The notes beneath the pieces were generated by a model, which did no database searches, had not been told where the DNA came from, and worked only from the letters and a program-made list of their open reading frames with translations. A stretch of 64,000 bases of DNA from Sulfobacillus thermosulfidooxidans DSM 9293 (lineage in GTDB: Bacteria; Bacillota; Sulfobacillia; Sulfobacillales; Sulfobacillaceae): positions 625,517-689,516 of the forward strand of contig NZ_FWWY01000001.1 in assembly GCF_900176145.1 (NCBI RefSeq), read 5' to 3'. The position numbers and the translations under genes are program-made. Position 1 is the stretch's first letter. Every line of letters begins with the position of its first letter. Shown here one piece after another: positions 22,469-24,687 of this stretch.

Positions 22469-22612
22469 TTACCGCCAGAGTGCCAAGACAAACTCAGGAT
22501 CAATGGCGGCTTGTCTTAACCACACATAATATTCTGTAGAGGTCATTTTTCCCTCTAAGTGTAGCGTAGTTAGCCGGTGAATTAAATCTATTAGCTCAGG
22601 TTGGTGTGTCAT
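22469..22612 (-). CDS. 47-residue ORF between two membrane-protein genes
   Basis: A short ORF (MTHQPELIDLIHRL to VLALWR) with a good ribosome binding site, AAAGGGG about 8 bases before ATG 22612. Its ATG overlaps the TGA of the upstream membrane-protein gene (ATGA), and its TAA lies 15 bases before the kimA-like start in the same frame. It is predicted to be mostly helical, soluble and not secreted. I know no family for it. Coupling on both sides argues that it is translated. Confidence 0.6.
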   Translation of the reverse strand: MTHQPELIDLIHRLTTLHLEGKMTSTEYYVWLRQAAIDPEFVLALWR

Positions 22613-23589
22613 AATCGTTGCCCCTTTATCTTGCGCGACGTATCGCCTACCGAAATCCACGTCAAAAGAAACCATAGCGGCGCACTATATAAATTCGCTC
22701 CCATTGCCGGTAGCAAGCCTAAATCCTGGCCAAAAATCCAACACCACAATAACAAGATCGCAGAAATCACGAGAATAGACCAGGAGGACCAATTTTTCCA
22801 GGTGATAATGGCTAGTATGCTCAGGAACATTATCAATATGATATTGATTACCACTGGGTTATTTTGAGCTATGGATATGAAGCCGTCGACAAAATGTGCC
22901 ATGGGAGAATAGGGGGAACGACCAAAAATTATCGCAATATGGGACGTCCAAAACCTGGGCCGTAATTGGGCCAGAGCCGCCAGACCATACATGATGGCCA
23001 TGGCGTGACGAATGTAAAAGACAACATGGTTTCGTTCCCAATAATCATTGGGTAACAATAATAAAGCGCCCACAATAGCGGCCAACAAACCAGGGCCTGG
23101 GCTGCCTGGCACAATGCTTAACCGCGGCGAGAAGAGTCCACCAAAAGCTTCGGTGGTGGCCCAGGTTGTAAAAGAAAAAAGAGTGGCTAACAGTAATGAG
23201 ATCCATCCCGCGATATTTTCTCGCTCAGTTAACAGCATAATCCCCATAAGAAACTGAAAAACCACCAATAAAATGTTCCAGGTGACGGGCTGTGTCGTCC
23301 AGGTCACCGCAATGGGCCGGAACAATTGAATCACCCATGACGGTTGTGCTGGGTACATTTCCTGAATCAATTGATGGGTATGGGTGGTCACAGCCCAAGG
23401 AAAGATTTGTAAAACGGCTGATAACAGCCACCATCCCCCATATCCCAACCATAAAAGGTAGCGTGAGCGTAAGACCGTGGGTTTTTCGGTATGGATGGTA
23501 AATAAAATAATGACTTTAGCACCGATGACAAAAAACAAAAATAAGGCGACATCAATCAAGCTTTGATAATAGTTCGTCACTAATGACAT
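22609..23589 (-). CDS. Polytopic membrane protein, unknown function
   Basis: A 326-residue protein with about eight or nine hydrophobic segments, rich in Trp and Pro at segment ends, with notable stretches RLSIVPGSPGPG and FGQDLGLLPAMGANLY. I do not recognise a family; haem-copper-oxidase assembly proteins and DoxD-type proteins were considered and do not fit clearly. It lies between rsfS and the 47-residue ORF and overlaps the latter, so it probably belongs to the same transcript as the kimA-like gene. AGGAG precedes ATG 23589 by about 11 bases. Confidence 0.7.
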   Translation of the reverse strand: MSLVTNYYQSLIDVALFLFFVIGAKVIILFTIHTEKPTVLRSRYLLWLGYGGWWLLSAVLQIFPWAVTTHTHQLIQEMYPAQPSWVIQLFRPIAVTWTTQPVTWNILLVVFQFLMGIMLLTERENIAGWISLLLATLFSFTTWATTEAFGGLFSPRLSIVPGSPGPGLLAAIVGALLLLPNDYWERNHVVFYIRHAMAIMYGLAALAQLRPRFWTSHIAIIFGRSPYSPMAHFVDGFISIAQNNPVVINIILIMFLSILAIITWKNWSSWSILVISAILLLWCWIFGQDLGLLPAMGANLYSAPLWFLLTWISVGDTSRKIKGQRL

Positions 23590-23642: not shown

Positions 23643-23993
23643 TCATTCCCCAATGGGTACGATTTCCGCATCGCCCCACAGGCGTTCTAAATCATAATAC
23701 CGGCGCTCTTCATCCGTAAAGATGTGAACTACCACCGCTCCGTAATCGAGTAGCACCCAGTGCGCTTTATCCCCGCCTACCCGTTGAAGCAGGGGAACCT
23801 GGGCCATCCTTAATGCCTCTTCAATATGGTCAGCTAACGCCGCCACTTGAATGACGGTATGCCCGGAGACAATCACAAAATAATCCGCCACCAATGTCAC
23901 TTGCCGCATATCTAAGACTACGACATTTTCGCCCTTGCGTTCTAAGGCCGTCTTCGCAGCTAATTCTGCCCATTTCCGTGTGTCCTCAGGAAT
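23643..23993 (-). CDS. rsfS: Ribosomal silencing factor RsfS, apparent ATT start
   Basis: Binds ribosomal protein L14 and blocks subunit joining in poor conditions. The family core is clear: VVVLDMRQVTLVADYFVIVSG, then GGDKAHWVLLDYGAVVVHIF with the conserved W-x-L-x-D-x-G-x-V-x-H-x-F, and a DLERLWGDA end. The only ATG in frame (23909) would delete about 28 conserved N-terminal residues. Upstream the frame is open to a TAG just before two ATT codons, and AGGAGG lies 8 bases before ATT 23993. With that start the protein has 116 residues, normal for RsfS. It follows yqeK as in Bacillus. Confidence 0.9.
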   Translation of the reverse strand: MPEDTRKWAELAAKTALERKGENVVVLDMRQVTLVADYFVIVSGHTVIQVAALADHIEEALRMAQVPLLQRVGGDKAHWVLLDYGAVVVHIFTDEERRYYDLERLWGDAEIVPIGE

Positions 23994-24023
23994 AATCTAT
24001 CCCTCCTACCCTAGTTTTTGGTG

Positions 24024-24141: not shown

Positions 24142-24687
24142 TCATCTCAGAGACTCCAGTGTTTTGAGCATCAGGGGATGCGGTTTTAAACGGCGGGATT
24201 GAAGGTATTGCATCGTTTCTTTCAACAACAAAATATAGGCGTCGTCCAATGATTGTTCTTTCGCCACCTGCTCGATTCTCGCCCGGGCATCAAATTTCCT
24301 GCCTGGTTCGACCCCATCTGCAATAAATAAAGCTTTCGCTAATGGCGAAAGATCGGGCGCCGCTGTGGTGTGATAATAAATGGCTTCCCAGACCTCGGGC
24401 CCTCCCAAATTTTCCTGTTGCAACCACGCTGCGGCCACTGGGCCGTGAAGCAAAATCGGTTCCTCCTCCTCAGGAGCATTAATGGGCAAACCCAGGCGCC
24501 GGGCCTCGAGGCGTAGGGCATCGCGAGACATTTCCCGAGCGAGGTCATGCCCCAATGCCGAAAGTCGGGCATCTTCCGCGGGCAAATGATGAATCTGGGC
24601 TAATTCCTCCATCAATTGGGCGACGCGCCAAACATGCTGCTGCCGGTGTGTTGTTAACTGAGCCAAGCGATCCTCTAAAAATCCCAT
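24142..24687 (-). CDS. yqeK: HD-domain hydrolase, YqeK family (Ap4A hydrolase)
   Basis: A 181-residue metal-dependent phosphohydrolase. Metal ligands of the HD fold are visible: His in QHVWRVA, HD in LGHDLAREM, His in LLHGPVAA, and an Asp in IADGVEPGR. YqeK proteins cleave diadenosine tetraphosphate symmetrically to ADP. AGGTGA lies just before ATG 24687. It lies between the RRM protein gene and rsfS and has its own promoter candidate, although in many Firmicutes it directly follows nadD. Confidence 0.9.
   Translation of the reverse strand: MGFLEDRLAQLTTHRQQHVWRVAQLMEELAQIHHLPAEDARLSALGHDLAREMSRDALRLEARRLGLPINAPEEEEPILLHGPVAAAWLQQENLGGPEVWEAIYYHTTAAPDLSPLAKALFIADGVEPGRKFDARARIEQVAKEQSLDDAYILLLKETMQYLQSRRLKPHPLMLKTLESLR

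Follow-up and report, generated by a model that had tools for sequence, protein, structure and literature searches.

The rsfS locus of Sulfobacillus thermosulfidooxidans

The window analysed here is a stretch of 64,000 nucleotides from Sulfobacillus thermosulfidooxidans DSM 9293, the genome of which (G000) comprises 3.86 Mb in two contigs. Coordinates given without a contig refer to this window. On its minus strand lie rsfS, its upstream neighbour yqeK and the following features:

24142..24687, minus strand: yqeK, upstream neighbour of rsfS (TIGR00488, 89.5 bits)
24002..24007, minus strand: Shine-Dalgarno (SD) sequence AGGAGG of rsfS, about -10.7 kcal/mol in duplex with the 16S tail, 8 nt to the second ATT
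23997..23999, minus strand: in-frame TAG, closing the rsfS frame immediately 5' of ATT ATT (read from the sequence)
23994..23996, minus strand: first ATT of rsfS, the less likely start, 5 nt from AGGAGG and not kept in G007, G002, G001 and G004
23991..23993, minus strand: second ATT of rsfS, the proposed start codon, 8 nt from AGGAGG and matching the start position of relatives
23643..23993, minus strand: rsfS coding sequence from the second ATT, 116 aa, stop included (TIGR00090 and PF02410)

Judged by its profile matches, the frame 23996-23643 is an RsfS/Iojap/YbeB ribosome silencing factor, a class of proteins that bind the 50S subunit and block subunit joining. Read from the first ATT it has 117 aa; its product matches TIGR00090 over residues 11-107 with 107.5 bits, in excess of the curated cut-off of 56.9 bits, and the full frame matches PF02410 over residues 13-107 with 104.7 bits. 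The 5' region reads TAG ATT ATT CCT GAG GAC on the minus strand. As the preliminary description of this DNA had stated, the frame is closed by TAG and continues directly with ATT ATT CCT (23999-23991), and AGGAGG (24002-24007) stands 8 bases before the second ATT. The 16S tail, GGATCACCTCCTTTCT, is canonical with a matching CCTCC and occurs in six exact copies in the genome. G000 has no usable ATG, GTG or TTG compatible with the conserved N-terminus in the interval that runs from the upstream stop to the aligned eighth residue, and its listed open reading frame begins at ATG 23909, 28 codons past the second ATT. The stop of yqeK lies 145 nt from the first ATT, with no overlap or close coupling there.

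Two further observations concern the surroundings of the gene. Downstream of rsfS, positions 22609-23589 (minus strand) hold a hydrophobic-looking open reading frame of 326 aa with no Pfam match at E 0.001. The approximately 80 bases just 5' of rsfS have a 74% match at C2:45759-45828 of the same genome, which may be low-complexity sequence.

Coding status of the region up to ATT

Between G000 and seven relatives of its genus, 98 of the 163 nucleotide differences in codons 2-29 of rsfS fall at third positions, while those within the 60 nt upstream are about equal in number in the three frames (89/95/85), a pattern which argues that the region up to ATT is coding and part of the translated protein. 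It is thus very improbable that RsfS starts at ATG 23909 without its first 28 residues. This ATG is the first ordinary start codon of the frame, but no SD lies 5' of it, and beginning there would remove conserved family positions, lowering the PF02410 score by 18.5 bits from 104.7 to 86.2. The conserved N-terminus does extend about 28 residues upstream of this codon, as had been described earlier, whereas the claim that it is the only in-frame ATG did not hold: it is the first, and a second follows further inside the gene. Initiation at the first ATT (23994-23996), which would add one Ile codon, is improbable. That codon is also downstream of AGGAGG, at 5 nt, but the usual SD-start spacing of rsfS in the family is about 8 nt, and its position is taken by GCT, CTA or GTT in G007, G002, G001 and G004, which have ATT or ATC only at the second position. 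It is the second ATT that aligns with a lone ATT or ATC at similar spacing in the relatives of the genus, and with ACG or ATG at similar SD spacing elsewhere in the family. Finally, a sequencing correction restoring ATG, GTG or TTG had been named as an outcome that would overturn the ATT start. It is contradicted by the separate genome G003 (97% protein identity), in which TAG-ATT-ATT is identical, and equivalent closed frames are present in G002 and G004, so that an error of sequencing or assembly can practically be dismissed.

Start codons of rsfS in the family and order

A match to rsfS was present in 59 of the 61 genomes searched (G000 included), among them 41 of the 42 genomes of the order and 33 of the 34 of the family, the one family genome without it (G030) being 63% complete. 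Start regions were inspected wherever there was a match, i.e., in 33 family genomes, eight other genomes of the order and 18 of a further 19 from the class. Hand reading assigned non-canonical starts to 22 of the 33 family genes (15 ACG, 5 ATT and 2 ATC) and ATG to eight, with no start state for G008, G025 and G033. A uniform caller, a fixed scoring rule that combines SD energy with a bonus for canonical codons, placed 23 of the 33 in the non-canonical class (ACG 15, ATT 5, ATC 3, ATG 9, TTG 1). In G031 it took ATC at 3 nt where hand reading took ACG at 6 nt. Within the genus (eight genomes), ATT was read in G000, G003, G007 and G002, ATC in G001 and G004, and ATG in G005 and G006; the 25 family genomes outside the genus have ACG (15), ATT (G016), ATG (six, all from genera g3 and g11) or no assigned start (three).

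The non-canonical codons fall at one SD-spaced position across the family. Seven of the 33 genes (G000, G002, G003, G004, G020, G027 and G032) lack any ATG, GTG or TTG from the upstream stop to the aligned eighth residue. The other loci have some in-frame canonical codon, and for them the SD decided the call; because many of these frames are open upstream with canonical codons that lack a good SD, only the seven calls are forced. The comparison with relatives that had been proposed as a check thus found ATT, ATC and ACG recurring in the family, with the same spacing from a strong SD. The sequence features of the locus (closed frame, SD and conserved N-terminus), together with this recurrence at one place, bear out the ATT start that had been suggested for G000. 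ATG occurs in two members of the genus (G005 and G006) and in a six-member clade (g3 plus g11), so a weak start is not a requirement.

Among the eight genomes from the rest of the order, rsfS starts with GTG in four, was called CTG in three and is unassigned in G035. A tree of 41 genomes was built from RsfS (minus the first 12 residues), YqeK, IF3 and part of IspE. On the 37 scored rows (G008, G025, G033 and G035 left out), with the uncertain CTG calls treated as non-canonical, it requires at least eight changes of the rsfS start codon and only four switches between canonical and non-canonical, gain and loss not being distinguishable. The identity of the codon therefore drifts while its weakness stays, though one transition is enough to turn ACG into ATG. 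Among the 15 genomes with an ACG start, the start is ACG in all 15, and the invariant Thr of the RsfS motif TLxADYF is encoded by ACC in ten and ACG in five, so ACG at the start does not merely reflect the choice of a Thr codon.

Three loci stood out in other respects. G020 has, in addition to the full gene, a second, partial RsfS-like stretch (C33:1267-1404). In L009/L187 (G001) and L013 (G035, a single-contig genome), yqeK and rsfS share one stop-free frame of 323 and 358 codons, respectively, possible YqeK-RsfS fusion proteins in two distant lineages.

Control genes, SD strength and coupling to yqeK

As called by the same rule, yqeK has a canonical start in 29 of the 33 family genomes (ATG 15, GTG 6, TTG 8), with CTG in three and ACG in one; the difference from rsfS in canonical starts has a Fisher p of 3e-6, uncorrected for kinship, which inflates the significance of all the p-values given here. 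The positive control infC, found in 33 of the 34 family genomes, was called ATT in 17 and ATC in 16 (ATC in G000), and 17 family genomes have no canonical codon for it at all.

SD duplex energies of rsfS average -11.0 kcal/mol with non-canonical starts (n=22) and -10.0 kcal/mol with ATG (n=8; p = 0.0015, kinship uncorrected; G008, G025 and G033 left out), and the slightly stronger SDs fit compensation for the weak codon. In G000 a hairpin of 7 bp is possible over SD and ATT. In 30 genomes compared with codon-shuffled controls, accessibility from SD to start showed no consistent tendency, and a conserved hairpin hiding the start was rejected on this ground. Coupling to yqeK was likewise rejected as the cause of the weak start: spacing between the two genes ranges in the family from overlap to 145 nt, and since G020 combines overlap with ACG, and G005 and G006 combine a gap with ATG, coupling is no general explanation. 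In the g3/g11 clade (L014, L015, L017, L018, L021 and L024) the ATG of rsfS overlaps the 3' end of yqeK and mostly follows a weaker SD; coupling to yqeK, rather than a weak codon, may hold output low in this clade.

Start codons of rsfS in the class, the phylum and E. coli

In the further class genomes rsfS starts with TTG in 15 of 18, and with GTG, ATG and ATC once each. The ATC call (L183 of G047, from another family of the class) has a weak SD and no canonical codon near, and could be an independent non-canonical start. For the phylum, the best-scoring 30 of 118 matches, not a random sample, gave TTG in 17 and ATG in 13; TTG was found in two of 22 yqeK genes, a difference from these best 30 of 118 with a Fisher p of 0.0005, kinship uncorrected. 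E. coli rsfS (ybeB) also starts with TTG, in agreement with the UUG start reported in PMC10917681, where its expression is described as peaking in exponential phase; such a peak makes it ill-suited to a simple stationary-phase switch. Because TTG is common in the class, the phylum and E. coli, rsfS appears to keep weak starts as a fairly general rule, with the Sulfobacillaceae going beyond the three canonical codons. The family seems to have shifted from the TTG/GTG range to codons known to be rejected by IF3.

Other non-canonical starts in these genomes

For 864 kb of G000 with 722 predicted genes, a codon model combined with an SD scan returned 13 non-canonical candidates, several of them doubtful; it returned three among 328 genes in G004 and three among 379 in G011. 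These figures give an order of magnitude only, since the scan overlooks some such starts, for example infC in G000 and rsfS in G004. A homology scan of 92 gene pairs between G000 and G004 gave 15 listings, mostly overlapping genes or misframed ends, of which rsfS in the two genomes and tpiA in G004 seemed genuine. From these scans, non-canonical starts elsewhere in the lineage would amount to roughly 1-2% of genes or less.

The clearest other series is ispE, read in 30 of the 32 genomes with a match: it starts with ACG in all eight members of the genus (L188-L195), mostly after a strong SD (in G000 at C1:958473, minus strand, outside the window), and mostly has ATG-looking starts in the 22 other family loci. 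Probable ACG starts with a good SD were also read in G000 for a selD-like gene (C1:1056728, plus strand) and a purR-like gene (C1:956469, minus strand), and in G004 for tpiA (C1 at about 549873, plus strand), these names coming from reading of the sequence. With a few unrelated genes also at ACG, a weak start alone is not evidence that a translation factor is being regulated, and the examples of ispE, selD, purR and tpiA temper the idea that such a codon marks translation factors specifically.

Discussion

We consider it likely that rsfS of S. thermosulfidooxidans is translated from the ATT at 23991-23993, placed by the strong AGGAGG, and that its weak codon is a maintained throttle on synthesis of the protein. 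The initiator tRNA would mispair with ATT and IF3 would destabilise the resulting initiation complexes, so that RsfS output would be a small fraction of the ATG-driven yield, while the strong SD would hold initiation on the correct codon. A low level of RsfS would limit the supply of an anti-association factor during growth, and the protein would be expected to rise when free IF3 drops relative to 30S subunits. The size of the throttle, an action of IF3 on the rsfS mRNA, and the effect on scarcity or rise of RsfS are what we infer from these features; that the weak starts keep RsfS scarce is probable, and control by IF3 is plausible by analogy, as IF3 discriminates against these codons and the infC of the same genomes starts with ATT or ATC. 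Precedents exist in Staphylococcus aureus, where non-canonical AUU and AUA starts yield approximately 10% of the expression from AUG when the medium is poor (PMC13009471), and in Streptomyces, where IF3 represses a GTC start (PMC5472188). They make a throttle the likeliest reading of the rsfS start.

What such a start does in the cell can be read in several ways. It is unlikely that the lineage broadly tolerates non-canonical starts and that the ATT of rsfS arose by drift and serves no function. The ACG of ispE in all eight members of the genus and the candidate ACG starts of selD and purR (G000) and tpiA (G004) would agree with tolerance, but non-canonical starts stay rare in the three genomes scanned, and drift would not predict weakness conserved across a deep family when ATG is one transition away. 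A nearly even chance, somewhat short of it, attaches to the ATT setting a constant low RsfS level with no regulated response to IF3. Weak TTG starts are common for rsfS in the class, the phylum and E. coli, and we know of no IF3 control of E. coli rsfS; the ATG clade overlapping yqeK, in which SDs are mostly weaker and the sites of g11 less accessible, looks to have arrived at low output by a different route. Against a constant level stands the move of the family from TTG/GTG to IF3-discriminated codons of the same kind as in its own infC. We tentatively advance the possibility that rsfS of the Sulfobacillaceae belongs to an IF3-sensed regulon, its start being in the IF3-rejected class, such that free IF3, acting on the 30S side, would set the level of RsfS, which acts on the 50S side. 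The same tentative reading takes in the rsfS genes of the phylum and E. coli as kept at weak starts, with the Sulfobacillaceae at the extreme.

Several known systems resemble the proposed throttle. The autoregulated infC (AUU/AUC/AUA) likewise combines a non-canonical start and a strong SD in a gene for a ribosome anti-association factor; rsfS, in contrast, would be controlled by IF3 in trans, and ACG, its commonest start in the family, was not seen among the 33 family infC calls. The pcnB gene of E. coli reportedly starts with AUU. In S. aureus, cvfC1 (AUU) and ccpN (AUA) have inefficient starts, mapped by ribosome profiling, that limit translation (PMC13009471). As in rsfS, these starts are conserved and stand behind a strong or extended SD, but those of rsfS were read from sequence. 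These three are different genes, and the rsfS codon varies between ATT, ATC and ACG. The sigR gene of Streptomyces (GTC) is, as rsfS would be, a regulator other than IF3 with a non-canonical start; repression of sigR by IF3 was shown by IF3 dosage and infC mutants (PMC5472188), whereas an effect of IF3 on rsfS is proposed from sequence. E. coli rsfS is the same gene at a weak UUG start (PMC10917681), but UUG, a canonical codon, starts many genes, unlike ATT and ACG.

In the literature searched, the coverage of which excluded most subscription papers, no report of a non-canonical rsfS start was found. To our knowledge, only a few bacterial genes have a conserved non-canonical start, and ACG is rarer again among them. 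An inefficient start with a strong SD is of a known kind; what is new, as far as we have seen, is its occurrence in rsfS, its conservation throughout the family despite changes of codon, and the frequency of ACG. Annotation pipelines restricted to ATG, GTG and TTG will make RsfS, IF3 and certain other proteins of these genomes too short or too long. The family-wide series of ATT, ATC and ACG at rsfS offers a natural test of selection for start-codon weakness, and of whether the amount of another ribosome factor is determined by IF3.
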